From contig JANFOG010000007.1 in the NCBI GenBank assembly GCA_024336345.1, positions 1,240,001 to 1,304,000 on the forward strand: a stretch of DNA of 64,000 nt, written 5' to 3'. The first letter of the stretch is position 1; every line of letters starts with the position of its first letter. The stretch comes from Mariannaea sp. PMI_226. Lineage: Eukaryota > Ascomycota > Sordariomycetes > Hypocreales > Nectriaceae. Of the stretch, positions 1 to 30,689 are shown one piece after another. The notes below the pieces were generated by a model. The model saw nothing but the letters and a program-made list of their open reading frames with translations, was not told the DNA's origin and searched no databases. The translations under genes were made by a program, and so were the position numbers.

Positions 1-3000
1 TGATATCTTTATTTCAACAGATATTGCAAATCAGCCAGGGCGACAACTTGAAATTGTTTGCGATTTGAATAATACATTTGCCCGCTCTACAAATTTGAGT
101 ACTGCAGTTTTCCAGAGGAATGAAAATGGCGAGCCAAGATGTATCCTAACGTTGGAAAGAGGAGAGATCCGCGTGGTAGGAGAGTCACAAACCTCCACAA
201 AGAAGCCTGAGCATAACGATATTTTTAAATTGGAATGGGGCATCGATGTTTCGTCAGTTACGGCCCAGACCTTGGAATCTGCTGAGGTCCCATTGCAATC
301 AGACGAGGCCGGGATATCTCAAGCGGAAAAGGTTGAACTTGGCTCCGTTGCTTGCGCAAGGTACATCGACTGGGCAGTCAGGGAAATGCGTGATCGGGGA
401 CTGGCTGTGCAAGACGACCACCGGGTCCACTGGTGGAGACTGCTGGAGGAATTCTTTAGATCAGAATCAGGACAGGGTCTCATCCAACGGAGCCCAGAAA
501 CCAAAGAAGAGTTGGATCAGCTTACTTCGAGGCTGGGTGTCGAAGGGGAGGCTATAGCGCGGATTGGGCCCGAGCTCATCCCTCTTCTTACTGGTCAAAC
601 AGACCCTCTCGCCCATTTCCTCAAAGACGATCTGCTATTCCGTGTCTATCATTCCGATGAAGGTGCCCGACCCAATCGCTACATGGCTGACTATGCGAAA
701 ATTCTCACCTTTCAGCGGCGAGACTTGAAAATTCTGGAGATCGGAGCAGGAACCGGAGGTACCACCTTCCAATTACTCCAAGCATGTAGTCCCGACCGCA
801 AGGCCTTCTGTTCGGAATACATGTACACAGATATTTCGTCTGGGTTTTTCGAGGCTGTTCGCACAAGCAGGCTCAAAGATTGGGCACATCTACTGACGTT
901 CCAAACTCTTGATCTTGAGAAGGACGCCGCTGAGCAGGGATTTGAAGAGCACTCCTACGACCTAATCATTGCTGCAAATGTTGTTCATGCTACACGCTGT
1001 CTAGCCAAATCATTAGGCACTATTAATAAGCTGCTAAAACCTGGTGGCGTCCTTGGCCTCGTTGAGCTTACCAGGCCGACGCCATACATCACTATGACTT
1101 TCGGTTCCATCCCTGGTTGGTGGGCTGGAGTCGACGAAGGAAGGACGGACAGCCCATTGCAGTCTGCTGACCAATGGCACGAACACCTTCAGAAGGCTGG
1201 GTTCTCCGGCGTTGATCTGGCAGCATACGACCTTCCTGAACCCGAGAGACATTGCGCTCTGCTGCTATCAACTGCCCTCGCACCACAGCCGACGACAAAT
1301 GGACATCCAATAAATGCGATCAAGATATTAGACTCTAGATCTGAAGGAATTATTGAACAAACCTTTTCTAAGCACCTTGTTGATGGATTGACGACGAAAG
1401 GCCTCGCGGCCTCGGTAGCCGGGTGGACTGATGCGTCGGTCGATGCCGCCGGCTCGTACATTATCCTAGAATCGGCTCAACGGCCACTCCTCACGCATGC
1501 TTCTGCTGAAGAGTTCAGCCGAATTACATATTTGTTATCTAAAGCCTCTAAGGTGTACTGGATCAGCTTTGCAGAAGGCGGTAACAGCATTATCCCGGAA
1601 AATGCACTTACAGTTGGACTCTCTCGAACCGCTCGCAACGAGAACCCGCACCTCGACTGCTTTACAATTGATATACAAGACTCGTTAAGCCAAAACTACG
1701 ACTCAATCTGGGGAGCCATCATAGAATTTATCATTTCCGCAGAGTCCAAGCTTGCGAAGCACCAGCCTCGTGAGTTTGAGCTCATGTACAAGAATGGGAA
1801 GATGCAAATCCAACGCCTGGTACCTGACGATCGATTACAAAAGGCAGTGTCTGCTAGCTCAGAAGATACCAGCATTGATGAGGTTTTGATTCATCAAACT
1901 GACCGGCCTCTAAGAATCAACGTAGACAAACCTGGATTGTTAAGTAGCCTTGTATTCGTCGACGATGTGCGAGATGAACTTGCCCCTGACGAAATTGAAA
2001 TCAAGTCTTATGCATGGGGCCTCAACTTCTCAGATGTCTTCATAGCCCTCGGCCAGCTACCTCCCACACAACCCATGGTTGGCGAGAGTGCCGGAGTTGT
2101 TACTGCCGTGGGATCGAACTTTCTCTCTCAATACAAAGTTGGGGACCGTGTCACCGCCATGTTCGGCACACCGTATGCAAGTCGAACACGCACGAACGGG
2201 CATTTGGCCTATCGTATTCCCGATTCACTCTCATTCACCAACGCTGCTTCAATTCCTCTTACATTTTCAACCGCGTACTACTCCCTATTTGATTGTGCCA
2301 ACCTTCAGCCTGGGCAGACAATATTGATTCACTCCGCTTCAGGTGCACTCGGTCAAGTGGCTATCAAAATTGCACAGCGCCTCGGAGCAATTGTCTTTGC
2401 TACTGTAGGAAGTGCACCCAAAGGGCAGCTTTTGAAGGATCAGTACGGCATACCGGAGAGCCATATCTTCAGCAGTCGAACCACCGATTTTGCGACGGGG
2501 GTTAAGAGGCTTACAAATGGAGCTGGAGTGGATGTAGTTCTGAACTCTCTATCTGGCCCTATGCTCCACGCTTCTTGGGAGTGTGTTGCTATGTTCGGAA
2601 CGTTCGTCGAAGTGGGCAAGACAGACATTACTCGACAAAGCCCGCTGAGTATGAAGCCTTTTGAGCGAAACCTGAAGTTTATGAGTGTAGATCTTGTTAC
2701 ACTTTCGAGACAACGCCCGGCATCCTGCCAAAGGCTGTTACAGAAGATTTTTGCCGATTTGGAAGTTGGACTGCACACTCCGCTCCCATTGACTACGATG
2801 CCAATCGGTGAAATTGAGAAGGCATTCAGGTTGATGCAGAGCCGAAAGCATACCGGAAAAATTGTGCTAGAAGCCACAGATGAGTCTACTGTTTGTGCTA
2901 GAGCACAGCCTCTGCGACTTCGAACAGATGGGACTTACGTGGTGGTGGGTGGGCTTGGAGGATTGGGAAAACATCTCTGCCGACATCTCCAAGCCAAAGG

Positions 3001-6000
3001 CGCACGACATATCGCTCTGTTCTCAAGACAAAAGTTCGATGAAATGACGAAAGTTGAGATGGAAAGGAATTTAGCAGAGGTTTCTGGCGTCGTCGTCAGG
3101 ATTGTGACGTGCGATGTGGGAGATATAGACAACGTCCAACGTGTGGCTGACGCACTATCAGAGACCATGCCTCCAGTGAGGGGAATTTTCCACGGTGGTA
3201 TGGTTCTGTCGGTAAGTCAATCCCAACGTCCTAAAATTATAGAATCCGATATTGGGAAAAACTAATAGTAAAATAGGATCGAACCGTATCCCAGATCACG
3301 AGAAAGGATTTCGAGATCGCTCTTCATCCCAAGTATCATGGGACCGTCAACATTTATAAGGCTTTCTTTAGCGAGAATCTTGACTTTTTTATCAATCTCT
3401 CTTCGCTCTGCGGTATCGTCGGCACACTTGGGCAAGCCAACTACGCCGCAGGTGGCACTTACCAAGATATGTTTGCGCATGCTCAACTGTCAGCTGGCCG
3501 CAACAAGGTTGTAACACTGGACTTTCCTTTAATCAAGAGTACATATACTGTTACCAACGAACACACTCACTCTCTGGCCAGGCAGGGTGTCAAGCTTCTT
3601 CCCATAGAAGCCGCTCTGCCTGTCATCGACTACGCAATGAGCGGCAAAGCTTTCAAAGATGGTAATCACCAAATTGCTTTTGGCCTGGATCCTCAGTCCT
3701 TCATCGAACAAGCCAAGCATGGTGGAAGAATCCCTCCGCTTGTGTCTCATATTGCCCTTAATCGCCGACTAGATCCTGCACTTGGTGCCCCTGAGGGGCC
3801 CGAGCAGACGGTTGAGGAGAAAATAGCTCTCGCATCGACGATTGAAGATGCAGGCGATTTAGTGCTTGTCGCCATCTGGGAGAAGATCTCGTCACTCACT
3901 GCTATTGACCCGCAGGAGCTTGGTCTCGACGTGCCTATCGCGAACATGGCACTTGACTCACTCGTCGCAACCGAGATCAAAAACTGGATTACTAATACAC
4001 TACGCGCCCCAGTGCAAACCTCAGATATCATGGATGCGCCGAGTTTACGATCTCTGGCATCGTATGTGACAAAGAGCTCTGGTCTGGTCAAGGGATGGCC
4101 AGAAATCAATCAGAATCAGAACGATAAGGCTAGTGAGACGAATGGGGAGACTAATATCAACTCTGAGTCAGGGAACAGCAACGGGGAAGTTGCCCTCCCA
4201 AAGTATCCCTTGCAATCCTTGGAAACAACGCTGGAAGTCTTTCTTGATTCAGTTGGTCACATTGGAAATGCAGTGGAATTACAGCGTACCCAGGAGGCAA
4301 TTGACGCCTTTCAAAGCCCTGATGGGGTCGGGCAGCGACTCCAATCGCGACTTGCAAAGCTTTCTGGTAAACAAGATGAGAATGACGAAGTGGTTGACAT
4401 GTATGTCAGAAATAAATGGCTCCGAGGCCGAGATTGGCGGCCTAGACTTCGAAATTTCTTTGCTACTCTCCCCGGTCAGGATACAGCTCGTCAGTCCCAA
4501 GCGGAACAGGCTGCGTGGCTTTCTCTGGCAGCCTATCGATACAAGCTTGCAGTGGATACGGGCAGTATCAAACAAGACTACTATAATGGCCAAGCGCTGG
4601 ATAGTAAGTAATATCCGCCTTGTCTTCCAATTTTCTCCTTGTTTTCACAGATTACGCAGATAAGATTTATAGGAAGAGACTGACTTTATAAATTTTAGTG
4701 GCAACTGTACATTGGTTATTCAGCTCAAATCGTACGCCTGCCCTTGGTTGTGACCGCTACGATAGATTCCCAGATAGCGACTATCTTGTGGCCATGAAGA
4801 ATGGCCACGCCTTCAAAATCCCTATCAATGAGAAAAATGGGCACATCTTATCATTCGAAAAACTGGCATGCGTCTTCCGAAAGATATCAGAGGAAACTCC
4901 AGGCGACACAAACTGGGCGAGTATTCTCACCACTGCAAACAGGGATGACTGGGCGAAGGTGAGTCAAGCTAAGTCTCCTGATGGATTTTCCTATATATAC
5001 TCATATGTCTCAAGGTTCGTGAAGAGGTAATGGCATACAGTGAGAGCAACCAAGCTTTTGTGAAAACTATTGAAGAATCCCTTTTCATAGTGAACCTTGA
5101 GGATGCTGCTCCGGAAACAGCAGATGAGCGTGCAGATGTCTTTCTTCTAGACGAAAACTCAAACCGCTGGCTAGACAAGACACTTTCGTTCGTTGTTTGT
5201 GATAATGGCGTGTCAGCCATATGGGGTGAGCACACGATGGTCGACGGAACGACCTTTGGTGGCCTAATCAAAGCTCTCACGCATTCGGATGCTAAAGCTA
5301 CACAAACTGCAAACGGATTGCCCATTATGAATATTCAGGCCGACGTTGACTTCGCTTACCTTCCATTTACTATTCCTATTACTCTGGCTAAGTATATCAC
5401 TACACTGCAGGTTGAACACCGATCCGCCCACAATGGCTTCGCTCTAGCCAACCTCACACACACGAATTATGCGGCAGCCTACCTAAGGCAGCATAAGCTT
5501 CCACCAAAGACTGTAATTCAACTAGTGATCCAGATTGCAGTACGCCGTCTCTTTGGGTACAACCCCCTTGGGGCAGTTGACGTCATTTCTCAGCGTCCCT
5601 TCCGCGGCGGACGCACCGACATGATCTATATCATGACGCCCCCAGTTCAGGCATTTTGTGCTTCGGCAGATAACCCTGCTGTCACTCACTCACAAAAGAA
5701 GAAGTTGCTTGTGGAGGCGGTCAAGTCTCACGCCAGGCTTGTCGCTCTGTCAACGCGGGGTCGAGGCTTCAGATGGCACCTTATGGCGCTGCGGGAAATG
5801 TTGGAGCCAGGAGAGGAGCTTCCAAGTTTCTACCGAGATAGAATCTTTGAGCGAACGACCGAACGGCGAGTTTGTACAAGTTTCACAGAATTTGGCCTTC
5901 CCGAAATGGGAAGATGCCAACCTAATAAGACTGATGTTTGGGTTGGTGTACAGGTGTTCGAGGAAAGGTGAGCAGAGCTAGCCAAGTTACTGCTGAGAAA

Positions 6001-6127
6001 AGCCCGCTGACAGTTCATCAATAGGGTTCAATTTACAGTGATAAATGGAGAAGGAAAGTCGGGGCAGTTCGTTGACCATCTTAGGGATGCTGCCGAGGTC
6101 ATGAGGCAGATCATTGCAGCTGAGTAG
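1..6127 (+). CDS. Highly reducing polyketide synthase with C-terminal carnitine acyltransferase domain (5' end outside window)
   Basis: The reading frame is already open at the left edge, so KS, AT and most of DH lie outside. Exons are 1-3211, 3277-4603, 4699-4958, 5015-5967 and 6025-6127; all junctions are GT-AG and keep frame. Domain order: DH end (to about 230), C-methyltransferase with LEIGAGTGG (about 730-1200), ER with [10 protein letters not shown] (1980-2870), KR with [11 protein letters not shown] and catalytic Tyr in QANYAAG (2930-3500), ACP with the pantetheine serine in ALDSLVA (TCA 3958-3960), then a choline/carnitine acyltransferase domain (4195-6127) whose catalytic His is in GEHTMVDG (CAC 5231-5233). 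Known family: HR-PKSs with such a terminal domain, for example Tv6-931 of Trichoderma virens, release and recapture acyl chains with carnitine or other alcohols. All active-site motifs seen here are intact. The neighbouring BCKDH genes suggest branched acyl supply (inference). Confidence 0.96.
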
Positions 6128-7580
6128 CCGGATTCCTCGGTCTAATAGTAATTCCATCCACCGTTTGCCCTTAATTATTAGTCTAAGATTGCAGGTCTTC
6201 AAGATACTTCATTAGGTGTTTCACTATGAAGTATATTGTCATCCAGATGCTTCTCATTGAGTGCTATCTATTACCCCTTCGCCTTCAACGTGTTGCTGAA
6301 CTCTGTTCCTTAACTGTCACGAGTTCACAAGCCCGAAAATATAGAGTCCAGAAGCCGTAGTGGTCACTACCCGATCAGCGTATACATATTGATGCGGCCT
6401 TATTTCTAGTAGTTGCTGGACTTTGTGTGTTCCGCATATTGCGTGTCACTACATCCGGATGCTTGATACCACTCCACTTTGAAGAAAATGCCGAGAAGAT
6501 GCACCATTCACGCCCGCGCATAGGAGGATGCCTAGGTGCAAAAGCCGAGCCGTAAAGTTGACGGAATATCAGGCGGTAAAGAATAACGCTCAAAAAGGGT
6601 TAAGGGAGAAAAGGGGAGAGGGCGGGCTTGACGGACGGAAATTACAGTGTGTTATGTAAATAATCGGGCTTCCTCCTACCAACCTACCCTAGATCTGTTT
6701 GCTTGCTACCGAAACCCTCGCTATCGCCCAACCTGTGCTCTTGCCCCAATGGGGACTATATGTTGGCTCCACCCTCAGGACAGTAATAAAAATATCCATA
6801 TCCATATCTAGCCCGGCATGTCGTGTAATGAGTAAGTGAGACTATGTGGAGAACATGCTCAGCGATTGCCTTTAGCTAGAAATTCACATATGCATAAATA
6901 ATAGCTAAGACCATCCAATCCTGGCAATTCAAAACCCGATCTCTGGTCCTAGGGCACTGGTTGTAGTAACCCCACCTATCTTGATTTCTGGCTCCAGTCC
7001 ATCGCGTGAGTTTGTATTAGACTTGAGCTGTTTAATGCATTATGCTAAGCCTTTCAGCATAGAGGGTGTAATTCAATAAGTTTATTCGATTCGGTGATAT
7101 CAGGAAAGCATCCTTGAGGGTATTTTGCTAGCGTTGTCTGTCTGTCAGAAGGCATTAAAGTCTCCCTACTCAGGAGTGGGGTCCTACGATTGTCAAGAAT
7201 TCATCCTCTGGTTTATATGGTCTACGCCCGGTTTATGCAAGTCTATTGGGGCCCTGGGGCTAAACCCGAGGCGGGTGAAGATGAATGAAATCGATCACAA
7301 AATTACGGCGCTTCAGAAACGCCGACCAAGAAAGGATAGGATTGTCTATCACCGAAACCGGAGTACCCCCATGGTGTTGCTCGCATACGCTCGCTTATCC
7401 CCGGGAAACCAAGTGCAGCCTGTTCCGAGGCTACCAACCTTGGTATCATAGGATGCATCCATGGTTATGCCCATATCTTTAGTCCCTGATCATCTCACTG
7501 TTATTCATGACAAGGACGGGATTCTCCAAACTCGTTTCACTTGTTTCTTTTCAAGGGCCAGTTGGAAGATATCAATCCAG
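6128..7580. other. Intergenic region between PKS and BCKDH E1-alpha
   Basis: No convincing gene in 1.45 kb; the ORFs here lack family features. It should hold the PKS 3' UTR and the E1-alpha promoter. CCGGATTCCTCGG just after the PKS stop (about 6129-6141) resembles the CGGATTCCG in the E1-beta/E2 promoter, a weak hint of a shared Zn2Cys6-type site. Confidence 0.5.
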
Positions 7581-9247
7581 ATGAATTTTGCAGCTAAGCG
7601 GCGTGCCACTCGATGGCTCAAAGGAAACTCACGGGCATTCAATGGGGGTTATTATGTCCAAATTCATCATTTCGAGAGATTGAACTCCGTAGCGACAACC
7701 ATTTCAAATTCAGAACCGTAAGTTGTGACGGCCAACATGGCGTGTTTGTTTCGTGTGTTTCTTCAACTGGTTCCACCTCGATCTAGCTCTTGATACATGT
7801 TTGAAACAACATGACTGAAATTATTTAGGCCCAAATTCCCAGGCGCTATGAAGAGCCAACTGACCGATACCATGGAATTTGTGTCGCCAGCATCGCGGCC
7901 CGTCATTCCTACCTTCAATGTTATGGACTTTAACAGTATGATCAAGACAGAGCACGATGATCTCAAAGAGCTTGACAATGAGACGATTCTCACGTGGTAT
8001 AAAAACATGGTTACACGTCAGTGGCCACACAAACCCCTGAATATTAAACTGTCGCGGGTCCTGACGTCTTGATTGAATAGTAAACACGCTTGACACTATC
8101 ATGTCGGATGCTCAGCGGCAAGGTCGAATCAGTTTCTACATGGCAAGAAAAATCTGTAACCATAACATGTTTTCTAGGCTGACTGACGCGGCCATAGGCA
8201 TCCTCTGGAGAAGAAGCTGTAATGATTGGATCGGCTGCTGCCCTTGACGCTGGAGACGTGATCACATGCCAATACCGCGAAACTGGAGTCTTCATGCAGC
8301 GAGGGTTTACTTTGAAGGACTTCATGAGCCAGCTATTCCATAACAAGAACGATCCTGGTAAGGGAAGAAACATGCCCTGCCATTATAGCGGTAAGCTCAA
8401 AGTCAACGCGGTAGGCAATTTTTTTCTTCAATATCAAATCATAGTTCTCGGAGGCACTAACAACGTTGGCATCTTTCAGCATGCCGTTGCCTCCACCTTG
8501 GGCACACAAATTCCACACGCGACGGGAGCCGCATACGCTCTCAAATTGAACGCCATGGAAGATCCAGCAAGCAAACCACAAGTAGGCGTTGTTTACTTCG
8601 GCGATGGCGCTGCTAGCGAGGGTGACTTCCACGGTGCCCTCAACCTGGCCGCTACTAAAGATTGCCCTGTTATTTTTATTTGCCGCAACAACGGCTTCGC
8701 TATCTCGACTCCAACAACAGAGCAATACCGTGGAGATGGTATTGCGTGCCGCGGACCGAGTTACGGTATTGATTCGCTCCGAGTTGATGGAACGGATATT
8801 TTTGCCGTGTATGCTGCGACGAAGGAGGCGCGGCGGAGGGCGCTTGAAGGTGGTGGCCGCCCAATCCTGTTGGAGTTCATGAGTTACCGAATCTCCCACC
8901 ACAGCACAAGTGACGACAGTTTCGCTTACCGAAGCAGACAAGATGCTGAGCCATGGACACAACGTGACAACCCACTTAAACGCCTGCGTAAGTGGCTTGA
9001 AAATAAAGAGCTATGGGACGAGACGATGGAAGCCCAATTCCGCAAACAGGTCCGTAGGGACATTCTGAGAGAGCTGGAAGCAGGAGAGAAGGAGAAGAAG
9101 CCAAGAATCTCCTCGGTATTTGACGATGTTTACGCTCATCTTACTGAAGAGGCAATCGCACAAAAGGAAGAACTCAAGCGTCTGATCCTGAAGTATCCCG
9201 GAGAGTACGATGTCCACGAACATGAGGGAGGGATTGAGGGTCTGTAG
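7581..9247 (+). CDS. Branched-chain 2-oxoacid dehydrogenase E1 component, alpha subunit
   Basis: Five exons: 7581-7717, 7829-8016, 8081-8142, 8198-8410, 8480-9247 (455 residues). The thiamine-diphosphate-dependent E1 heterotetramer decarboxylates 2-oxoacids of Val, Leu and Ile in the mitochondrial matrix. Evidence: ThDP motif GDGAASEG at about residue 241 with the paired RNNGFAIST at about 269, and the E1-alpha phosphorylation-loop signature HHSTSDDS at about 339. That signature separates BCKDH from pyruvate dehydrogenase. I chose ATG 7581 because it opens a basic, acid-free presequence (MNFAAKRRATRWLKG). Oddities: intron 3 (8143-8197) fits only as GC-AG, and intron 4 (8411-8479) is 69 nt, in frame and stop-free, so retention would add 23 residues. 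It converges with E1-beta. Whether it is the only copy in the genome cannot be seen. Confidence 0.93.
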
Positions 9248-9521
9248 AGTGTAACAAAGGCTTTAGTCTCCATTGTCATTAGTACTATTATTATTATTAT
9301 AAACCTAGAACTAGTTGTGCAGTATAGTGTCCTCGTTGAGATATGCGACTATAGCACTTTTATTGCAATGTGTACTAATGCCAATAGTTTATCTTGAGGG
9401 TTACCGAACTATGAGCTCGGCTTTGGTTTCGTCTTCACAGAAGGCCACGCAAATGTTCTGGGATTGACGAGCACATTCGACCTAACATCTTGACTGCATA
9501 AAAAAGCTATATATTCCTATC
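9248..9521. other. Convergent 3' intergenic between E1-alpha and E1-beta
   Basis: 274 bp separating two convergent stop codons. It holds a TTATTATTATTATTAT-like AT stretch near 9287-9301, plausibly serving 3'-end formation. No gene is visible. Confidence 0.6.
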
Positions 9522-10855
9522 TTAGTAGTCTTCAAGGCTGCTACGAAGTGCATCGTATACTCCTGTTAAAATTTTATGTTAGCCCTTTGATTGATCTCTG
9601 TACATTGCAAGCACCGACGATATCCAGCAAAAGGCAAGAAAAGAACTTACTAGTCACGTCAGGCATAATCCACTTCTCGTAGGCTAAGCCGGTGTGTGTG
9701 GTCCATCCACCAATGCGCTTCACTGGCGATTTTAGGTGAAAAAAGGCTCGGTCCTGAATGGTAGCGGCGATTTCTGCACCGACGCCGTAGTTCACCATGC
9801 TCTCATGAACAACAATAGCCCGGCCCGTTTTAGATACGCTATCGATAATTGTTTGCCGATCCCATGGGTAAATTGTGCGTAGATCGATCAATTCGACACT
9901 GGCACCCGGCATGTCTTTTTCAAGAGCTTCGATTGCTGCGGCGCATGTGTACATCGGGCGTCCATATGAAATGACGGTCACATCGGTGCCTGATTTGACA
10001 ATCTCGGCCTGGCTCAGCGGAAGCGTGTATGCTTGTTCAGGGACTTCTTCAGCGGCCGCTCGGTAGAGAATCTTAGGCTCCATAAAAATGACGGGGTCTT
10101 CAGAATCGAGGATCGCGGACAGAAGCAGACCTTTTGCTTGAGTGGGAGATCGGGGGACAACGATACGGAATCCGGGGATATGGCAGAACAGCGACTCCGG
10201 AGATTGAGTATGATATCTGTAAGTGTGTTCATATTTTAGCAAACCAGTCCCAAAGTCAAGGGTGATTGTCATATAGAGATTTTACTTACAGTGCACCGTG
10301 TCCCACGCCACCACATGGCATTCGAATAACCATCCCACCTAGATTTCCACCAGTCTGGCCCTCTCTATATCTAAACTTTGCCGCTTCGTTGACAATCTGA
10401 TCAAAGGCAGGGAATACGTAGTCTGCAAACTGGATCTCCACGACAGGTTTGCGACCTTCGGCTGCCATGCCTACAGCGGCTCCAACGATCCCTTGCTCGG
10501 TGATGGGAGTGTTGAAAACGCGGTGTTCCCCGAAATCAGACTGAAGGCCTACGGTGCAACGAAATACACCACCAAAAGCCACGTCCTCGCCAAAACAAAG
10601 GACCTTGGGTGATGCGCTGAGCGCTGTGCGAAGTGCGTCATTCACAGACTGACACAGATTCATGCGTTTCGACGATCCATGCGTAGGTAAGCCAGCTGTG
10701 TTCGGAAACGTCTCTTTGCTGTGATGTAGAAGGGGGGTAGAGTTATAGTTGATTGGATTATTCAGTCGCCGCGTCGCTGGTGAGGATGCTAAGGAGTGAG
10801 CATAACGCCGCACTGCTAGCCCTGGATGCCCTCTAAAAAAGTTGGACGTCGCCAT
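9522..10855 (-). CDS. Branched-chain 2-oxoacid dehydrogenase E1 component, beta subunit
   Basis: Three exons on the minus strand: 10855-10290, 10216-9651 and 9562-9522 (390 residues); both introns are GT-AG and restore frame exactly. Evidence: the beta-subunit core [17 protein letters not shown], then [36 protein letters not shown], the splice-joined [15 protein letters not shown] and the C-terminal transketolase domain with [13 protein letters not shown]. The last exon is only 41 nt and completes a normal C-terminus (LRSSLEDY). The N-terminus ([17 protein letters not shown]) is a mitochondrial presequence. The product pairs with E1-alpha. It is divergent from E2 across 615 bp, which suggests shared control. 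Length matches the family. Confidence 0.94.
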
Positions 10856-11470
10856 CGCTCTGTGCAGACTTCAGCAACTTCCTTTCCTTGACAATGTATC
10901 CGAAATCCCTAGGAGAAGAGTGTCTTATGCCTAGGGTTTAGATTAGGTCTGATCCTCCGGCATTTTGCAAGGACTGCGGCGATGACATATCCCGAGGACG
11001 AGGTCGGCCCAACCCACGCTCTTTACACATCACGTCTAGTATACCGATGCTTACCGCAACCTGGCGTTTATGCACAGAGACCCCAAGCGATGATCGGAGG
11101 TGAGGTCTTCGGATTCCGCCCCATCGGGCTATTTCCAGATGGCGGGGTTAAATACCACCACCATGATAGTGCCGCCCGCATTTGATCATCCTTGGTACGC
11201 TTATTTCCAGATTAGTCCGGAGAACCTCTGTAAGCCCATTAGAGATCTATCGTAATTTTTAACCAATCCGCCGTTCAAGCCGTCCAAATGAACATAGCCA
11301 GGGTCTGGTTTGCATCGGCTTAATGAGGAAGTAAATACACGAAGGGCGAGAAGTTAGCCGATGCGACTGTTCTATCAAGAAGGCCAAGTGAGCCCAGTTC
11401 CGTTGCCTTCCTGGACTTTAGGTTGGGTTCGTATCGCTGGATTTCAAGACACCAATTTCTGAGCCCACAA
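10856..11470. promoter_or_regulatory. Bidirectional promoter region between E1-beta and E2
   Basis: 615 bp lie between divergent start codons, so it must contain both promoters. CGGATTCCG at 11110-11118 is a CGG-N3-CCG inverted half-site pair of the kind bound by Zn2Cys6 regulators. No TATA box is clear. Function is inferred from position and motif only. Confidence 0.45.
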
Positions 11471-13113
11471 ATGTATCGATTTCTGTCCAGAGGGTTTCGA
11501 GGCGCACTCACGTCCTCGAAGCGACTGCCATCACCGAGTACTTTCAACCAGAGCGTCAAATTGAGCAAAAGTCTGGGTGCATACGAGGCCTATGGGGTCT
11601 CTGTCATCAAGTCCAGCTCCAGACTTCTCCATTCCACAACGAGAAAACTCACAATCAGGCCGTTTATTCTGGCAGACATCGGAGAGGGTAAGTCCAACTT
11701 GAGGATAGGTCACAAGAATGCAGCAGACTAAACATAAAACATGACAGGGATTACCGAATGTCAAGTGATAGAGTGGTTCGTGAAGCCCGGTGACAAAGTT
11801 GAACAGTTTGACCCCGTATGTGAGGTTCAATCTGATAAGGCATCAGTTGAAGTAGGTGGGCAATCTAACATATCCATTCATTTACGCTAAGATAAAACAC
11901 CATTAGATCACTTCACGGTTTGATGGTACCATTACAAGGCTTCACTATAAAGTGGGCGATGTTGCCACAGTAGGGGAGGTGCGGCAATGATTCCTACTAT
12001 AAGATAAACTTTGAACGTCACTAATCAATTCAATAGCCCCTTGTAGATATTGATATGGGTGGCGCAGATGATGGCGAGGAGATTGCACCTAAATTATCGG
12101 CAGCGACTGAAAGAAACGCAAGTGAATCAAAAGTTATCAACGAACAACAACAGAGCCACAAGCCAAAGGAAACCACAACGGACACACGACCTGAAATCCC
12201 AGTGCAAAGGAATTCAACTTTGGCCGACTCGATTGATCAGCTGGTCGCTCCAGCCATCCGGTACCAGCTCAAGACGCTTGGAATTAATGCGTCGGATGTA
12301 ATTGGAACAGGTAAAAATGGACGAATCACAAAAGACGATGTCCAACGACATGTCGACACTCAGGCCTTGTCGAAGTCGGAGAGCAAGACAAGTGAAGACC
12401 ATGTGTTGCCTTTGACTGCCATCGAGAAACAAATGTTCCAAACAATGACGAAGTCCCTCGCCATTCCCCAGTTTCTCTACACACATTCAGTCGATACTTC
12501 GAGCTTATCACAGCTTCGTCAACGCGCCAACGACGCGTCTCAAGGTCAGCCAGAATCGGTCGCTAAGATCACAACGCTTCCATTCATCATGAAGGCTATT
12601 TCGAATGTCTTTGCACGGTTTCCAAAGATGAATGCCCACTTGGAGGCTGGGTCGGACGCCAATAAGGCCCAGCTTGTCCTCAAGTCCTCGCACAACTTTG
12701 GTATCGCTATCGATACGCCGCAAGGTTTACTTGTCCCCATCGTCAAAGGTGTAGAGCTTCACTCTGTCCGAAGCCTTACTGTGGAAATAGGTCGCCTAAG
12801 CGAACTGGCGAGGGCTGGTCGGCTCCACCCTGATGACTTCAAACATGGTACTTTCATTATTAGCAACATTGGTAGCATTGGAGGAAGCGTCGTTAGCCCT
12901 GTCATTGTGCCACCTATGGTGGGGATTGTGGGTATCGGTCGAGAACAGTCCGTACCAGCCTTTGACGAGGATGGCAACATTGTGCCACAGAGACAAACCA
13001 TGCTCAGCTGGAGCGCGGATCATAGAATATTAGACGGCGCGACTGTGGCAAGATGTGCGGAGGCAGTGAGCCAAGTTCTACAAGACTCAGGGCAATTAGA
13101 GGCTTTTATATAA
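11471..13113 (+). CDS. Branched-chain 2-oxoacid dehydrogenase E2, dihydrolipoyl acyltransferase
   Basis: Four exons: 11471-11687, 11748-11851, 11907-11978, 12037-13113 (489 residues). E2 carries the acyl group on a lipoyl-lysine and transfers it to CoA, giving isobutyryl-, isovaleryl- or 2-methylbutyryl-CoA. Domains in order: mitochondrial presequence ([18 protein letters not shown]); one lipoyl domain with the modified lysine in SDKASVE at about residue 103; peripheral subunit (E1/E3)-binding domain at about 203-236 ([26 protein letters not shown]); and the acyltransferase core ending in the catalytic SADHRILDG at about residue 459. The single lipoyl domain fits BCKDH E2. No E3 gene is present; E3 is usually shared with other dehydrogenases. 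Confidence 0.94.
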
Positions 13114-14531
13114 TGTACTAAAGGATATACCTTTTGGAACAAAAGGTCCTAGTACTATATAATACATCTCTATAGTGTTCCCTCTTTTACTTAAAAGAGG
13201 AAATTATAACAATCTAATTTATTCCTAAGAGATAAACTAGTTATAATTAGTTTATATTAGTAATTTTCTAACTTAAAGTATAAAAAGAGGATATAAAAAG
13301 TAATAAGTCTTACTTTAAGAATTATTTATATAATTATAAATAATAGGCTTTATACTTTAGCTGTATAATTATAGTAAGCTTAGAATGTTAGCTTATAAAC
13401 AATACAGTAACTAATATAATAAAATTAAAAGTAAGTATCAATTATGGTCTTAGCAATATGTTAATTTAGACTTAGCTGCTATATTATAGGGGAAGTTAAT
13501 GATATGGGAGGTTGCGACCTTAAGGATGTCCATCTTTCTGTTCCCAGGTCAATTAGGCGCAACATGGCAGCTCCTAATGCAACGCCAAGATAACCACCTT
13601 CACATTGGTCAACTGTTAAAGAAGCCATGCCATCTGATATGGGACTGCTTTCCCCTTGCCCTTCGACAACTGTTTTTGGCGAAAGATCTTGTATATGACC
13701 GGCTTCCTTTTCACACCAATGGAAAGATTCACTTTGCCTCCCTGAGAGAACAACGACCTCAACATTAATAAGTTGCCACCAAGTGCAGCCCCAATGATGG
13801 CTTGCTCTAACAGCTTGGTGGATCGGGTAGAAGGACATATGAGGTTGGGGAAAGACTAACCAAAGCGAACGGCTGTTAACAGCGTTTGTTCGAGAGGATC
13901 TTGCCCACCCTCCACTACACTTTCGTAATATACCTTAGCTTTAGAGTAACATTTTTGGGCCATAAGGGCAATTGCCACAGTTATTTTTTAAGTATTTAAA
14001 CCCTTAGAACCTATTCATACGACCAGTAAGGCATTGCCAGCATGGTAGCTCTAATCCCTGTCATCGAGATGATATATATTAAGACGGTTTTACACGTATA
14101 GTTGATGTTGCTACTTTATCCAACATGAGATACTATAATATACTATCCAGCGGGTATAACTTATCTACTGCTAGTATTTGGTCATTTATAGCTCCACTGG
14201 TACACTGATCACCAATTGAAAATTCTCTACCTTTATCTGAACCGGCATTTCCGATTACGGACTTAAAGTTGGGCCAACTGGATTTTATATAGTTGGGAAA
14301 TTTAACTACAATATAATATAATACCAATGTCCTCATTTCAGACTCTTGAGCGACTGTAAAAACAGCCATAGACCACTTATAATACCGTGCAGATCATTCC
14401 TAACGAACTGTGTAGAGGCTCCACAGGTACTTATTAGATTTTTATCCAATTCCTCCTTACAACATTATGTCCATAATCTCCCTTTCAGATAACACGATTG
14501 TCCTCTCGCTATTGCCCCCCAAATCGTCTGT
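13114..14531. other. AT-rich, transposon-relic-like intergenic region
   Basis: 13140-13480 is very AT rich (TATATA, AATTAT runs) and looks RIP-decayed. 13480-13840 is GC-normal, and its minus strand has coding-like stretches in changing frames (GAALGGNLLML, GGYLGVALGAAML), suggesting a broken gene I do not recognise. 13850-14530 shows nothing definite. Confidence 0.4.
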
Positions 14532-17500
14532 CTAAGATGATACACCACCAGCAGCGTCCAAAGTGCCTAGTTCAGACTCCCACTGAGCTAATATTTCAAC
14601 TTTATTACAGTATGCCGGATGCTGCACGCCGAGCACAGCCACCTCACCATGAATGCATCGTCTCATCAGGTTGACGGCTTCTGTAGGTCGATTCTGGGTC
14701 CAGTAGGTGTATGCGAGGTGTGCCATACTAGTAAGAGTGCTGGGATGGTGAGGGCCGAGTCTTACCATGTTGGTGTCTAACACTCGTACCTCCAACTCTT
14801 CAGCATCCTGCAGCCGGCCTTGATTCCGGTATGTTGATGCAAGATTAGCCATATTGGTAATTGTGTCAGGGTGATTGGCCCCAAGCTTTGTCTGAGAAAT
14901 CTCCATCACTTGTACCTGTAGCTTTTCTGCTTCTTCCCACCGGCCTTGCTTCCAATATGTTGATGCAAGATTGGTCATACTGCTTAGTGTATGTGGGTGG
15001 TCTTGCCCTAGCTTGCTCTTAAAAGTCTCCATTACTTGCTCCTGTAGCTTCTCTGCCTCCACCCACCGGCCTTGCTCCCAAAGTGTTAATGCTAAATTAG
15101 CCATATTGGTAATTGTGTCAGGGTGATCGGCCCCAAGCTTTATCTGAGAAGTCTCCATCACTTGTACCTGTAGCTTTTCTGCTTCTTCCCACCGGCCTTG
15201 CTTCCAATATGTTGATGCAAGATTGGCCATATTGCTTAGTATATCTGGGTGGTCTGGCCCTAGCTTGCTCTTGAAAGTCTCCAGCACTTGCACCTGTAGC
15301 TTTTCTGCTTCTTCCCATCGGCCTTGCTTCCAATATGTTGATGCAAGATTGGCCATATTGCTTAGTGTATCTGGGTGGTCTGGCCCTAGCTTGCTCTTGA
15401 AAGTCTCCAGCACTTGCACCTGTAGCTTTTCTGCTTCTTCCCACCGGCCTTGCTTCCAATATGTTGATGCAAGATTGGCCATATTGCTTAGTATATCTGG
15501 GTGGTCTGGCCCTAGCTTGCTCTTGAAAGTCTCCAGCACTTGCACCTGTAGCTTTTCTGCTTCTTCCCACCGGCCCTGGTTCCTATATATTGATGTTAAG
15601 TTGATTATGCTAGCAAGCATGCCGGGATGATCGACCTCAACCTTCATCTTATGAGCCTCTATCACCTGCACTAGCAGCATCTCAGCCTCCTTCCACTGGC
15701 CCTGATCCTTCATTACTGTTGCAAGTAGCGACATGCTTGCCAAAGTGGCCATATCCTCTCTTCCTAATACTTTCTCCCGAGTCTGTAGAGCCATATGCAA
15801 CATCTGTCCCGCCGTATCATACATTCCTTGTGACCATGCATACCATCCTCCGTTGTGTAACAGAGTCGCCCAATCTTTCTGTACGCTTGGACTAGGCTTA
15901 CAATCAAGTGCCGTTTGCATATGTGCAAATAAATTTTGACAAGTCGTCCAGTTCCCGTATTCCCCTGTAGGAAATGCTGCCGCCATCCGCTTGATATATT
16001 GTCGCTCAAACCCGTCCAGTTGCTCATTTACCCCCAGCCACTCTCTCACTGATAGCTGTACAGGCCTACCCATGACAAATTCGTCGCGTCGCTCATTCCC
16101 AGCAATAAGACAATAGCTTTCCAGGGTTGCGATGTCCTCCTCGAAGCCATCGCCTGAGTTGTCATCTGAATCGTCTTCTGAGTCATTGGCGTCCAAAACA
16201 AGTACTTCACCCTTCAATAACGATTTCGGAATCCCTTGTCGGTCAAAAAAGCTCATAAGAGATAGCAAGTCCGCTGCTGAATGACGAATGGAGCGGATGT
16301 GTTCAAACGAGATTTGCCATGTCCGTAGAATTGAGTTCGACGCGCCCACATCCCGCCGTAGGTCCCCAGAATCGTGCGATAAAAGCCTCGTCCGTCTGTG
16401 TTCGTTCTTCTGAAACTCTTCTATGTAACTTTCCATAGAATAATGCGGCGCCCTCGCTTGGATGTACGCGGCGGCCTGGCTGATAGTTAGCGGTAAAAGA
16501 TCGAGCATCCCTACGAGGGCGCGAGCCGAATCCATCTTCATATCCGTAACTAGACCAAGCTTCTTCGTCAGCAAAGACAGAGCCTCCGTTTCCATCATCG
16601 GTCCAACCTCGACCGTGGCTCGTATCCCTCCTGTCAACCTAGTTGCCAGGTCTCTATTTCGTGAAGTGATGAGGATCAACCCGTTCCTACTCTGCGGAAG
16701 GTTTGTTGCCAGTGGCGGCCACCCGTGCAAGCCTTCTCTGGTACTGAAAAAAACGTCGTCATCATCAGCGCTGTCTAGAACCATGATCCACCTACTGGAC
16801 TTTTCATTGGATAACCAATTGTATACGAGTTGCACTTTATCGGTATTGGGCTGGTTCCGGCCGGCTAGTTTGACGGCGTTGGCAATAGTCCTGAAGCTCT
16901 CCTCGTACCGCGAACGCGTCGCGGCATGCACCCAAAACACCCACGGTTTAGCTGGTCCCTCAGACATTCGGTACGCGAATTCGATAGCCAACTGCGATTT
17001 GCCGACACCGCCCAGGCCCACAAGGGCCACACGATGAGGGGGATAAGCGCATCTTTGATCGATCTGGTTGAGGGTATCTCCGCGGGGGATAAAATCGGGG
17101 TCCCGGTGAAAAGGGATCAATGCGAATGGTTTCGGCGGTGGAAGTAAGCCGGCTTTACCAGCGTACGATGATTGCCTCGCATCTTTAGGGTCAACGTTCT
17201 CAAAGTAGGCGAATTTACTGAGCGCAGCGAAGTCTGTCCGCAAATTTGGACCCGGCAAGAAGTGCCAGTACTGGTCATAGTCGAGCATCGGAGGGTCATC
17301 CTCGAAAGTCTCGACAGTCTCGTGGTAGCCGAGGCCGTTGACATGTGTGTGGACAACCGTTCTCGTACCGTTGTCCAGGATCAAAGTCTTGGGGATGTCC
17401 CAGTAGCCCTCCTCCGCTAGCGCGTCCTTCCGCCAGCCTTGCAATGCTTTGGTGCCTTCATCGCTATTGTCGAGTGTCTTATTTTTGGAATAATATGCAC

Positions 17501-19061
17501 TCTCCTCGTCTCTGCCATAGTCGATATCCAAATAAGAGAGGGAAAGAAAGGACAGGGACTTAAGGTGGCGCGCCACGTGCTGCGCGAGGCGCTTGTAGGG
17601 CTTCTCCGGCACGTACTCTAAGATCGAATCGGGGACGTGGTTGCAGAGGGGGCATGCAAAGGCATCTTCCCGCATTGCGATGCGTCGGTTGCGCCGTGTG
17701 CGGCCCTGAATTTGAGACAAGGTCAACTTATCGCCGTGCTTAGCTTGTAAGTGAGTCAGAAGCGCCGCCTTGTCGTCAAACTCAACCTCCGTGCACAGGT
17801 GGCAGTACCATCGCTCCGTGTGGATTCTTTTTGCCCAGTCCATAGTGTGTCGCGTCTGCATATGATCCATCCACTCGGCGGAGCTCGGAAAGAATTTTGG
17901 GGGGTCCAAGCACTCCTCCGATATGCAGAGGTAGGGTTCCAAGTCCTGGAGGACGTGAAGCCTAGTCAAGTGTCAGCCTGGGCGAAAATTTGCGATATCA
18001 GATCTCCCATTGCGCATACTTCCAACCACTTTCTGTCCATCCGGACAAGTTAGGATCTGCGCAGATGCTACACTTGGTATGTCCTTTAGGGATTGGTGGA
18101 TACTGATCCTCGTCAGTAGTGGTGCCTCCCCCGACTGCAGATCCTATGCTGATGATGGAACCGCTTCGCTTTTGGCGGGCCCTGTAGCTGTCGAGGTGAG
18201 TCTGTGAAAAGGCCGAATGCATCGTGTCCGGTGTGGAAACGTTGTCTCCGAGATGGCAGCCCGGCCTCATAGTTCGCAGAGGCACACCAAGCATGGCTGG
18301 GTCACTAGCTTGTGGATTGGAAGCTCTTGTGACACTTTGCAAGGCCTGCTCGGGCTCGGTCACACAGATGGTACTATTTCTGTCAAAGGCGAGCTTCTCG
18401 TTGTGGCGTTGTAGGTACCGCAGGGAAGCTCCTCTGGTATGAATCGAGGTCGCCAGCTGGCTGAGCAAACTCGGCCGAGCATAGGGATACCGGATCCGCA
18501 GCAGGGTAGTCAGAGACTGACTTTTATTTTTCCAGGCGCCTGGTCGAATCTGATGGGACTCTCGTGCGGAGCGGCGGATATCTACTGCGAGAACGAATAG
18601 ACGGTTTACCGCAGCTATTACTGCACCGAGCCCTGGCATATCAGGGCCCTCGTCATCAAGGCAATTCTGGACAATTACTAAGCCGGAGTTAGTCGTGTCT
18701 ATTCCGATTTCGAAGCCTAAAACATAGAGGGCATCTTGGACATACCCCACCGCATATTGAGTCGGATGAGGACGAGGAGCTCGAGCACCATGTCCCGCGT
18801 CGTCCCCTGGAGCGCCAGGCGAGCGTCAAGTGAGGCCCGAGCAGAAGCAAACGCTCCGATATAGGCTGCCCATTGCTTGAACCGGGAACGCAGCTCTTCG
18901 ACTTCTGAGCAGAGCTGCTCCGTGCCCTGTTTGTCCGGCTGCTCGGGAACCTTGCACTGTTGTAGATACTCGTCAAAGATAGCTAGACAGCCGACGGCTG
19001 CCTCGTATATCGGCTCAGTCGATCTGCTCTGGCCATCCTCTAAGCCAGAACGCGAATCCAT
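14532..19061 (-). CDS. NLR-like STAND protein: N-terminal fungal domain, C2H2-type region, NB-ARC, TPR repeats
   Basis: Three exons on the minus strand: 19061-18746, 18677-18020, 17961-14532 (1467 residues). Intron 1 has a perfect ACTAAC branch site. Residues 1-320 resemble the N-terminal region of fungal zinc-finger/STAND proteins. Residues 325-440 hold C2H2-like pairs (WYCHLCTEVEFDDKAALLTH; FACPLCNHV). The NB-ARC Walker A is VGLGGVGKSQLA at about residue 635, with Walker B WIMVLDSADDDD, ILITSRNRD (the RNBS-B-like strand) and LLPLTISQAAAYI. From about 1075 come nine 42-residue TPRs of kinesin-light-chain type. Known family: fungal NLRs act in non-self recognition. No obvious N-terminal effector is present; its divergent neighbour encodes a free effector-type domain. 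Confidence 0.92.
14570..15720 (-). repeat. Tandem 126-bp TPR-coding repeats
   Basis: About nine units of 126 nt, each encoding one 42-residue TPR with the core YWKQGRWEEAEKLQVQV. The three units around 15178-15555 are nearly identical at DNA level, including synonymous positions, while outer units diverge. This pattern is known for fungal NLR repeat domains that exchange units by recombination. Confidence 0.9.
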
Positions 19062-19354: not shown

Positions 19355-22300
19355 ATGCATGACATTGCCGCCAGGTTCAATCGTTTGCTTGCTGCCGCAG
19401 AGCTTGCCGCTCACCCCCCCGAGCCCAGGACCTCTTGCTTCAAGTCGCAAAGGCAGGGTACGATCGATCAAGATCATGTCGAGCCGCCCGCTAGTCATCG
19501 CGCAGTGAGTGTTGATCGTTCGACTCCGACTGCCCCTTCCCCCCCCCCCTCCCCAGCACAGCACCTTCAACCGACATCTCAGAAAAGCATGATGCTTCTA
19601 GATGAAGCTGCCCCTCAACTCTTCTTCGCAGTGCTGCCAGCCTTCGTCGCATCTCTTCCACGACCCATCTTAATTTTGGAAGACCACATCCGAGGCTTAG
19701 GTACCGCGCCCGACAATATCCAAGCCCAACTAGCCGTGAATAATGCGACGGTACGACTCCGGCAAGCAATCCACGAGCTACCAAAGCGCTTCAACCCGGC
19801 CCGGGCGGCTCAAGACCTGCGCGCGAAAGCTTGCGCAGAAGCTGCTGAGGCGCTGGAAGACATGCTTTGTGAGATGGAGCGTCTTGTTGGTACTGGTATC
19901 CTCGAACATCGGGCTATTGACCAGGTAGCGGCAGTATCCCTTCTCTTTTCAACTACTTTGTGGTGCGTACGCTAAGTGACTTTTGTATGAAACCAGACAC
20001 AGAAGTTCAACAGGCTCAGTGTTTTGAAAGACCTCATGGGAAATGCACCTTGGCCGAATCCCGAGGAAGAGCCAGTCGTTCCACCTGATGCCTTGAGGTG
20101 GGTGACCTACCTGCAGCTGGAGAATCCAGCCACCGAGGCTGCGCAGTATCGATGCATTGCCAACCAAGCAGAGAGATTCAATATCGTAATGAGGCGCCTT
20201 TTCGACTTGGAATCAATAATTAGTGAACCAACAGCGGCCAGCCTTGTCGAGAGCTCGAGGATGTCGCCGGAGATAGATCAGAAGGAACGAGACTCCGAGG
20301 CACTCTTAGCAGCAAAAACAGTTAGCGGCATTACAAGAAACCTGTTCAACCTAATGCAAAAGCCCAACACTGAGCCATGCAATCCGCCCCATGGCGTAAT
20401 GATCCACCTGAACGGATTCGACCAACTCGAGATTGATAGCCTCGTAACACAATGCGGCCCTGGCAAACTTGGTAAGGAAAAAAAGACCAGGAAAGGTCAA
20501 GAAGAAAAGTGGCACGCAATCACGTGGGTGGCCGGGGCCTCAAAACAACAGACTGCCCAAAGTACCATCTGCGACAAAGTTCGGTCGTGTCGCAAGTTGA
20601 TGACGTGTTTGAGGGTGGAGGTTGGGGCAGACGGCTCGTGGTCTAGCACAACGTCGGAACGCATGAGAGCTTTTGCCAAGAAGCCTGCTTTGACGCTGAG
20701 CAGTGCCCTCAATCCGAAGCAAGGCCTCTCGCTTAGAAAAAAGGAGCGCCTCAACCTCGCGATCAAGATTGCAAAGTCTTTTCTCTGCCTTATCTGGAGC
20801 CCTTTGATTTGCACTTCATGGAACTCAGCCGCCATCCAAATTCTGGAGCAACGAGGCCAGACAGGAGAGAGTCCCGCTGTCAAGCCTTATATCGAGGGCC
20901 TGTTGCATATTCATGATCCAACTGTTGAGTGGAAGCCTGATTGTAAAAGCCAAATGTCTCTTATTCTCGACATCGGTGTCCTGTTGTGGGAGCTCCTATT
21001 CAATCGGAAGATTGTGGCAAATTCTGAAGATGGCCGAGTCGAGGAAGGGCACAGAGAGGACACTGACGAGAGTGACGATGAGAACCCCATCTTTTATGCC
21101 CTCAACCGCGAGGAGCAAGCGGCCCGTGATTCTTGTCTTGACGAGATCTGCCTTGATATCATTGCGAATTGCCTCGAGCTCTATGTCCTAGCCGATGACG
21201 AAGCAAACACTTCAACGCTGCAAATCGAGATATATCACAGGATCGTGCGACCCCTCATGGACTATGTTGAAACGTACAACAATAGCACCAGCGCAGCAGC
21301 CAGCTACACGCGCACACCTTCGCCACTTCCCACACAATGCCGCATCCAATTGACTGGGCGTTCTGTCTCCAGTAGTGGTCTACCGCAGGCTATACGACTC
21401 AGTCCATCTAGATCAATTCTTGAGATGACAATTCTTAATCCAGAGTTGTACAACGTGGCATGGATCGCTCCTCTGGAAATTGAGGCGCGCGCAGCCTTAC
21501 ACATACTAGACCACAGACATCCTGGACGCTTTCTCGTGAGTCGTGGTGACGATTATGTGTTCCATGCTGGTGAAGTGTGTGGGCACAACGTTATAATCGC
21601 TACCCTACCTGCAGGTCAGGAATATGGCACGGGATCTGCCGCCGCCCTTGCGAGTCAGGTTAAGAAATTCTTTCCTAATATTTGGTTCGGTTTGCTTGTC
21701 GGTGTGGCTGCTGGTCTACCGAGCCTCTCACGGTCGAAGCCGCGTGATATCCGCCTTGGCGACGTTTTGGTGGCTCTGCCCGAAGGTGAGAGTGCTGGCT
21801 TAATTGCGTACGACTTAGGCAAGGAGATGGGGAGAGACGGATTTCAAATCTTACGATTCGGACAGATTTTAGCTACCACGGAGACCGTTGTCAGATCAGC
21901 AATTGGAAGCATCAAACTCAATGCCCCAAACGACTCTGCAGTCTTTATTCCGTACTACGAAGGAATAAAGGAAAAGAAACATATCAATGGGACGTTTGTC
22001 GATCCGGGCCAAGACAAAGATGTTCTCTATGTAGCCACCGAGAATGGTGGCAAACGAGAAGTGAGACGAGAGCGACGAGCAGAAACGGAACGCACTCGCG
22101 TGTGGTATGGACCGATAGGCTCTGGAGAGAAGCTGATCAAGAATGCCGAAAAGAGGAATGAGCTGAGAGACAAGTATAATGTCATCGGTCTTGAAATGGA
22201 GGCGGCTGGGACCATGAACCGCATTCCGGTGGGCGTGATTCGAGGAGTGTGTGATTACGGAGACGAGCATAAAAATAAGGAGTGGCAACCATACGCTGCG

Positions 22301-22360
22301 GCCATGGCAGCCGCCTATGCAAAGGCCATTCTATTTGAAATTCGCCAGACCCAGCATTAA
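19355..22360 (+). CDS. DUF7580-like protein with C-terminal nucleoside phosphorylase (PNP_UDP) domain
   Basis: Two exons, 19355-19924 and 19997-22360 (977 residues). The N-terminal part has a Pro/Ser-rich stretch over a C-run near 19541, then a helical region. Residues about 190-640 resemble fungal DUF7580 proteins (KKERLNLAIKIAKSFLCLIW, LDIGVLLWELLF), a fold often compared with degenerate kinases. From about residue 671 comes a full PNP_UDP domain: NVAWIAPLEIEARAAL, GQEYGTGSAAALASQVKKFF, GLLVGVAAGLPS, and the closing VIGLEMEAAGTMNRIPVGVI with GVCDYGDEHKNKEW. In fungi this domain is the commonest N-terminal effector of NLRs; here it is C-terminal with no NB-ARC. Nucleoside cleavage or NLR-partner function is inference. 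Confidence 0.9.
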
Positions 22361-30683: not shown

Positions 30684-30689
30684 TTTCCC
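30647..30689 (-). promoter_or_regulatory. -1 programmed ribosomal frameshift signal (slippery heptamer plus hairpin)
   Basis: In gag frame the minus strand reads AAG GGA AAC, giving the canonical slippery heptamer G GGA AAC (30689-30683). A 6-nt spacer (GACAAG) is followed by a hairpin with stem TAGCTGG (30676-30670) and CCAGCTA (30653-30647) and a 16-nt loop; the stem begins with the gag stop codon TAG. After slipping back one base, translation continues exactly in the pol frame (RQVAGVST). All parts are directly visible. Confidence 0.9.

Follow-up and report, generated by a model that had tools for sequence, protein, structure and literature searches.

A Set of BCKDH Genes Adjoins a Polyketide Synthase Gene

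The genome of Mariannaea sp. PMI_226 comprises 42.2 Mb in 25 contigs, and the window analyzed here is the whole 64,000-nucleotide stretch C23:1240001-1304000. Near its left end, at 7581-13113, lie adjoining and intact genes for the E1-alpha, E1-beta and E2 subunits of a branched-chain 2-oxoacid dehydrogenase (BCKDH), beside a gene for a highly reducing polyketide synthase (HR-PKS, or PKS) with a C-terminal carnitine-acyltransferase-like (cAT) domain (Table 1). A sequence-only reading of this DNA had described such an arrangement, with MT, ER, KR, ACP and cAT motifs in the PKS, and our gene models and Pfam assignments confirm it. The BCKDH models are predictions, spliced by hand from genomic DNA without transcript support, and each is open from ATG to stop. 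The same reading had called the genes correctly spliced, which holds for the open frames, but E1-alpha needed a correction: a GT donor at 8156 was rejected because it breaks the reading frame, so that the gene requires a GC-AG intron, the GC donor of which keeps the frame open. The E1-beta and E2 proteins are 100% identical over their full length to public Mariannaea sp. PMI_226 proteins, and no public model was seen for the E1-alpha gene. The E1-alpha and E1-beta genes are convergent, and E1-beta and E2 are read away from each other across a gap of 615 bp.

The best match of E1-alpha in the PDB is human BCKDH E1-alpha (405.6 bits), compared with at most about 165 bits to the E1-alpha chains of pyruvate dehydrogenase (PDH), so that by similarity the protein is clearly of the BCKDH and not the PDH type. 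It carries the thiamine pyrophosphate (TPP) motif and the sequence HHSTSDDS, which we take to be the phosphorylation loop. The Pfam domains of all three proteins are complete, those of E2 being a lipoyl domain (PF00364, with the lipoyl Lys within SDKAS), an E3-binding domain (PF02817) and a catalytic domain (PF00198) with its H..DG motif, here DHRILDG. Because the best PDB match of E2 is a full-length bacterial PDH E2 (197 bits), ahead of the shorter mammalian BCKDH E2 core (168 bits), its probable identity as a BCKDH E2 is taken from the naming of related proteins and from its closer match within its own genome to the E2 on contig C12 than to the copy on C6 (27-30% identity). The likely assignment of E1-beta rests similarly on the names of relatives and on own-genome identities of 62% versus 37-43%. 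The enzyme is predicted to be mitochondrial, with a targeting peptide judged by eye, and to act on the usual branched substrates. Human BCKDHA, BCKDHB and DBT likewise form three catalytic subunits with the TPP motif, lipoyl and E3-binding domains and the loop HHSTSDDS; unlike this human-type mitochondrial enzyme, the Mariannaea trio is an extra, clustered set, 42-62% identical to the other copies of the fungus itself.

A Second BCKDH Set Is Scattered over Three Contigs

Family searches, tblastn searches on loci and protein searches located those other copies: E1-alpha on C25 (51-60% identity), E1-beta on C19 (61-62%) and E2 on C12 (42-45%). Since this second, ordinary-looking set sits scattered on three other contigs, the window trio is an extra, clustered copy, and the prospect that it might be the only BCKDH of the genome, which would have counted against the proposal of the sequence-only reading, can be set aside. 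Protein searches revealed no third close E1-beta or E2 in the genome; the next matches (37-43% for E1-beta, 30% or less for E2) fit other 2-oxoacid dehydrogenases.

The E2 on C12 (L026, C12:3965753-3966472, minus strand) has the catalytic motif DHRVIAG, with Ala in place of Asp, where all 61 other compared rows read DHRxxDG. Its frame is otherwise open. The Ala may be normal in the ordinary E2 of Hypocreales, since the compared rows are matches to the window E2 and ordinary Hypocreales E2 proteins are hardly represented among them.

The Trio Probably Belongs to an Accessory Lineage with a Patchy Distribution

Relatives were taken from the best 120 matches listed for each of E2 and E1-beta, with one contig displayed per 90% cluster. 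In a tree of 62 rows drawn from the matches to the window E2, 38 rows form a clade (99 SH-aLRT) that contains the window E2, and the C12 E2 of the same genome falls outside it. Members of this accessory clade come from scattered species of Aspergillus, Penicillium, Fusarium, Exophiala, Cladophialophora and other genera; the placing of single long-branched rows, that of the window included, is uncertain. A careful tree of 45 E1-beta rows likewise has an accessory clade, of 37 rows with support of 100/99, and Aspergillus nanangensis and Penicillium tannophilum each have one E1-beta inside it and one ordinary copy outside. Among the matches listed, the E1-beta nearest to that of the window is from Ilyonectria robusta (83% over 325 columns).

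Linkage in other fungi was inferred from host contigs of equal size and from locus tags, not from DNA. When 56 E1-beta matches (P0121-P0176 of the 120 listed) were compared with the 120 listed E2 matches, 18 pairings on contigs of equal size were obtained, the window included, and the species names agree as far as they are printed. Exophiala xenobiotica provides a 19th pair through adjacent locus tags. Contig sizes and tags together thus point to at least 19 linked E1-beta/E2 pairs in 18 fungi, window included, among the matches listed; these fungi span four classes. In all eight strains where both tags are readable (Fusarium duplospermum, F. oligoseptatum, F. ambrosium, A. nanangensis, Zalerion maritima, Penicillium angulare, Pseudogymnoascus sp. 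03VT05 and E. xenobiotica) the two tags differ by 1 or 2. A difference of 2 corresponds to one gene between E1-beta and E2, for which E1-alpha is the obvious candidate. For Dendryphion, one of the 18 pairings, the score of the E2 against accessory references barely exceeds that against ordinary ones (435 versus 430 bits). Two linked pairs, of separate lineages and on separate contigs, are present in Aspergillus unguis (P0138/P0070 and P0156/P0020).

Across the 19 pairs, E1-beta and E2 identities rise and fall together (r 0.95), and they still do so over 15 pairs when four of five near-identical Fusarium pairs are left out (r 0.81); in neither case did any of 5000 permutations reach the observed value. 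Within the E1-beta tree, the proteins of P. tannophilum and P. lividum (P0157 and P0162) nest in an otherwise Sordariomycete group of seven rows (100/99). Monophyly of the 12 accessory rows from Eurotiales was rejected (p-AU 0.0016), as was that of the 16 Sordariomycete rows (p-AU printed as 4.7e-90), although these p-values are optimistic because a first tree had already been inspected when the groups were chosen. These conflicts with species groups are a sign of horizontal transfer of E1-beta. No E2 of P. tannophilum or P. lividum was found among the matches listed.

Accessory metabolic gene clusters that move horizontally occur in fungi, and the trio resembles them in its patchy spread, apparent linkage and incongruent E1-beta tree; unlike the known ones, it encodes a multi-subunit mitochondrial complex. 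We found no account of a clustered or mobile BCKDH trio in a fungus among open-licence articles in PMC, covered mostly by titles and the openings of abstracts, where other wording or other journals would be missed. The bkd operon discussed in PMC4901931 is bacterial.

The Synthase Is of the cAT Type

When the adjoining 10 kb on the left (L032) was added to the window, the HR-PKS gene could be modeled in nine exons that encode 3135 residues without a stop. Its start codon lies 3.8 kb left of the window (L032:6219, equal to C23:1236219), so that about the first 38% of the gene is outside; the window part runs from the end of the DH to the cAT domain, with KS and AT farther left. A Pfam scan of P0241, a 3102-residue database model of the same gene, gave the order KS-AT-DH-MT-ER-KR-ACP-cAT, matching the cAT-type HR-PKSs Tv6-931 and LtbA, and no SAT domain is among the Pfam rows.

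A search with the cAT region listed 48 proteins, the window PKS included. The catalytic His2857 is kept in 46 of them and the remaining two are unreadable at that column. In an alignment to carnitine octanoyltransferase (COT), the positions of Tyr439, Thr452 and Arg505, presumably the residues that bind the carboxylate of carnitine, are occupied in the window cAT by Val, Thr and Trp, and the same Val and Trp are found in 22 of the 45 other readable matches. With two of the three positions changed, the domain appears, by its residues, to fall outside the true carnitine acyltransferases, and its name should not be taken as carnitine chemistry. Four distant matches (P0268-P0271) retain Tyr and Arg, not Thr, at these positions, and their cAT domains might still use carnitine. 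Elsewhere in the genome, a partial PF00755 match lies on C5.

The KS of the window PKS is 88% identical to that of Pseudogymnoascus australis and 84-87% identical to those of eight Trichoderma proteins with a readable KS, but the AT domains of these homologues are less similar (62-71%). The T. virens FT-333 homologue P0251, which may or may not be Tv6-931 itself, is 84% identical in KS, 86% in MT and 72% in cAT. Tv6-931 of Trichoderma virens is also an HR-PKS with an MT and a C-terminal cAT domain, although the window PKS was not compared with its sequence directly. Passages of PMC10901484 describe Tv6-931 as gem-dimethylating, with a cAT that releases chains to short polyols and recaptures polyol esters for gem-dimethylation, and a passage of PMC12142736 states that it yielded new tetraketides solely when an offloading substrate was added. 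LtbA, the luteodienoside A synthase of Aspergillus luteorubrus, has the same domain order with a C-terminal cAT, a likeness of architecture, and it is thought to use acetyl-CoA, malonyl-CoA and S-adenosylmethionine (SAM), according to PMC10901484. The same source lists in the LtbA cluster a family-2 glycosyltransferase, a methyltransferase, a flavin monooxygenase-like protein and an MFS transporter. The surroundings of the Mariannaea PKS differ, as 8-12 kb left of its start lie a different, DXD-type glycosyltransferase (PF04488) and a flavin-reductase-like gene (L033:5298-5981 and L033:7264-8007), which are possible cluster members.

The Synthase and the Trio Probably Have Separate Histories

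None of the 47 other listed cAT-PKS matches lies on a contig equal in size to one carrying any of the 56 E1-beta or 120 E2 matches, so that a conserved linkage of synthase and supply genes in relatives was not seen among the matches listed, with one contig per 90% cluster. No listed E1-beta or E2 shares a contig with the nearest relatives of the PKS, those with 84-88% identity in KS, and in T. virens FT-333 the accessory E1-beta and the PKS homologue are on different contigs. In a tree of 26 of the 48 cAT-PKS matches, the window PKS is nearest to that of P. australis at a path length of 0.36, compared with paths to Pseudogymnoascus sp. 03VT05 of 1.45 for E1-beta and 2.34 for E2. A joint arrival of PKS and trio would lead one to expect similar ages, and the path lengths differ.

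Comparison of upstream regions did not provide a convincing common motif. The three upstream regions have three 8-mers in common, against a shuffle mean of 1.05, and no 9- to 11-mers; those of the PKS and E1-alpha share slightly more 9-, 10- and 11-mers than shuffles, with 6, 7 and 9 of 100 shuffles reaching the count. This excess is small and does not make a convincing case for a shared promoter motif of PKS and trio. The GC content at third codon positions (GC3) is 0.49 for the PKS, 0.50-0.52 for the trio, 0.55-0.61 for the exons of the other BCKDH copies and 0.42-0.56 for neighboring genes, and so fails to set the PKS and trio apart from their neighbors.

The DNA to the right of E2 begins with an AT-rich stretch and goes on with genes of the NB-ARC/TPR and DUF7580 kinds. 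Frames of a retroelement, of a MULE-type transposase and of a zinc-finger protein are also there, together with an amidohydrolase. The survey took in frames from 120 residues upward as far as 22 kb and from 170 residues upward beyond that, limits that smaller genes could escape. Pieces of 54-138 bases from the AT-rich stretch (13202-13343) have counterparts, 74-92% identical, at 13 further sites of the genome. The NLR-like NB-ARC/TPR gene (14532-17972, minus strand) has near-identical internal repeats, and the DUF7580 gene adjoins it at 19991-22360. The retroelement (26802-31801, minus strand) comprises a 1311-residue open frame and a separate frame of 375 residues, and the MULE-type transposase frame is at 60016-61350 (minus strand).

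Table 1. Positions, in window coordinates, of the polyketide synthase and BCKDH genes and their parts
Feature	Position	Exons	Strand	Evidence
HR-PKS gene, 3' part	1..6124	1-3211 (continues left), 3277-4603, 4699-4958, 5015-5967, 6025-6124	+	Open 3135-aa model; Pfam
PKS C-terminal cAT domain, residues about 2560-3135; catalytic His2857 at 5231-5233	4189..6124		+	PF00755, 344 bits; carnitine octanoyltransferase alignment
BCKDH E1-alpha, 455 aa	7581..9247	7581-7717, 7829-8016, 8081-8142, 8198-8410, 8480-9247	+	Gene model, PDB match, Pfam
GC-AG intron in E1-alpha	8143..8197		+	Demanded by reading frame
BCKDH E1-beta, 390 aa	9522..10855	10855-10290, 10216-9651, 9562-9522	-	Gene model, public protein 100%, Pfam
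Interval from which E1-beta and E2 diverge; might serve both as promoter	10856..11470		.	Gene models; inference
BCKDH E2, 489 aa	11471..13113	11471-11687, 11748-11851, 11907-11978, 12037-13113	+	Gene model, public protein 100%, PDB, Pfam

DISCUSSION

The trio looks more like a movable cassette than a dedicated part of a pathway because related sets occur in scattered fungi, apparently without this synthase. The reading that we consider best, with a probability of about 60%, is that a mobile accessory BCKDH cassette came to lie beside an independent PKS. The trio would encode an accessory but catalytically complete mitochondrial BCKDH, with E1 as alpha2beta2 and a lipoylated E2, that shares the E3 of the cell and converts the branched 2-oxoacids of Val, Leu and Ile to isobutyryl-, isovaleryl- and 2-methylbutyryl-CoA. 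It would belong to a patchy, horizontally moving cassette of Pezizomycotina that is retained beside the ordinary scattered BCKDH and, in Mariannaea, landed next to a Tv6-931-like HR-PKS. That synthase is most likely primed by acetyl-CoA, methylated from SAM and relieved of its chain by acyl transfer to an alcohol through the cAT domain. The comparative evidence, though indirect, favors two units with separate histories, and the existence elsewhere of linked E1-beta/E2 pairs without the PKS is supported indirectly; the chemistry proposed for the PKS and the non-functional nature of its proximity to the trio are drawn by inference.

Several observations weigh against this interpretation. The PKS and E1-alpha genes are on the same strand and only 1.46 kb apart with no recognised gene between them. 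The longest frame in the 6.2 kb left of the PKS start is 125 residues, although a gene of short exons would still be possible there, and 6 kb of this stretch is nearly unique, with one other genome match of about 84 bases; as the PKS and trio adjoin and their left flank carries no longer frame, they form a small four-gene island. Linkage elsewhere is read from contig sizes and tags, 38 of the 56 E1-beta matches have no E2 on a contig of equal size among the 120 listed, and the representatives of E1-beta and E2 from Penicillium pancosmium and Exophiala oligosperma are on different contigs. Besides its pair, E. xenobiotica LTR72 carries another E2 at a distant position. E1-alpha was searched within this genome only, so its membership of the cassette elsewhere is presumed. 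The control for co-variation leaves species relatedness in, the choice of groups after a first tree affects both clade tests, and path lengths are a weak clock, since the pace of evolution may not be the same in PKS and trio.

The principal alternative, which we regard as unlikely, is that the trio makes an isobutyryl-, isovaleryl- or 2-methylbutyryl-CoA starter for the PKS and was recruited in the Mariannaea lineage only. This develops the proposal of the sequence-only reading that the genes are dedicated copies. Of that proposal, the part that stands is a further, paralogous set in a cluster next to a scattered one; the role in feeding the PKS does not find support. An extra clustered copy directly beside a PKS is what such a role would produce, and of the linked pairs that of Pseudogymnoascus comes nearest in E2 and shares the first place in E1-beta, the closest PKS being from Pseudogymnoascus too; however, Ilyonectria robusta is nearer for E1-beta, and Cladophialophora for E2, than Pseudogymnoascus. 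HR-PKSs are held to be cytosolic and BCKDH mitochondrial, and no exporter was recognised among the frames examined. A bacterial parallel is the second BCKDH gene cluster of Streptomyces avermitilis, reportedly bkdFGH. That cluster is also both second and clustered, and a title cited in PMC2939540 ties it to biosynthesis of the polyketide avermectin, but it is bacterial and the fungal trio is without a shown product link. Passages of PMC2939540 further propose that Aspergillus species build unknown polyketides from branched acyl-CoA formed in mitochondria, so that the idea has both a bacterial parallel and a fungal proposal behind it. We found no fungal gene cluster as a precedent for BCKDH starter supply in open-licence PMC articles, where other wording or journals are missed. 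Against a supply role are also the 47 other cAT-PKS matches, none of which shares a contig size with a linked pair, and the high KS identity to homologues with no listed trio alongside, as well as the absence of a SAT domain from the Pfam rows, the lack of a common 9-mer upstream and the chemistry proposed for LtbA, which needs no branched acyl-CoA. A wider scheme also seems doubtful, in which a three-gene cassette carries a whole second mitochondrial dehydrogenase complex from one fungal class to another and various secondary-metabolite pathways each enlist it afresh to obtain branched acyl-CoA; in Mariannaea it would provide a branched starter to a cAT-type and perhaps gem-dimethylating HR-PKS.

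The remaining explanations are less probable. If the trio, or its E2, compensated for an ordinary BCKDH weakened by the DHRVIAG motif, the contrast of Ala in the C12 E2 with Asp in every other compared row would be accounted for, and just two BCKDH-type E2 genes were found in the genome; yet the comparison was drawn from matches to the window E2, Ala is possibly usual in Hypocreales and the frame is otherwise open, which makes this replacement improbable. Even harder to credit is a bridge by which branched acyl-CoA leaves mitochondria as acyl-carnitine and the cAT, acting in reverse, loads the ACP. It would resolve the problem of compartments, and the cAT of Tv6-931 is reported, in a passage of PMC10901484, to recapture polyol esters, but Val and Trp replace Tyr439 and Arg505 of COT in the window and in about half of the other readable matches; the Thr position and the His remain, and acyl-carnitine loading is disfavored by the altered residues. 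Least credible of all is self-resistance, with the trio as a copy insensitive to a PKS product that inhibits BCKDH: a duplicate primary enzyme does adjoin the PKS, but all three subunits are duplicated and the accessory lineage also occurs where no PKS of the cAT kind is listed on the contig.

A mobile trio would be a more general finding than its proximity to a PKS. For a multi-subunit mitochondrial complex to travel as a gene cluster would be unusual, since its subunits must co-assemble and still use the E3 of the host, and it makes one ask what leads a number of moulds to retain an additional BCKDH. The locus also advises caution, in that proximity to a PKS does not prove that a precursor gene works for it. 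Species with the accessory BCKDH would be places to seek metabolites with branched starters or a special catabolism of branched acids.

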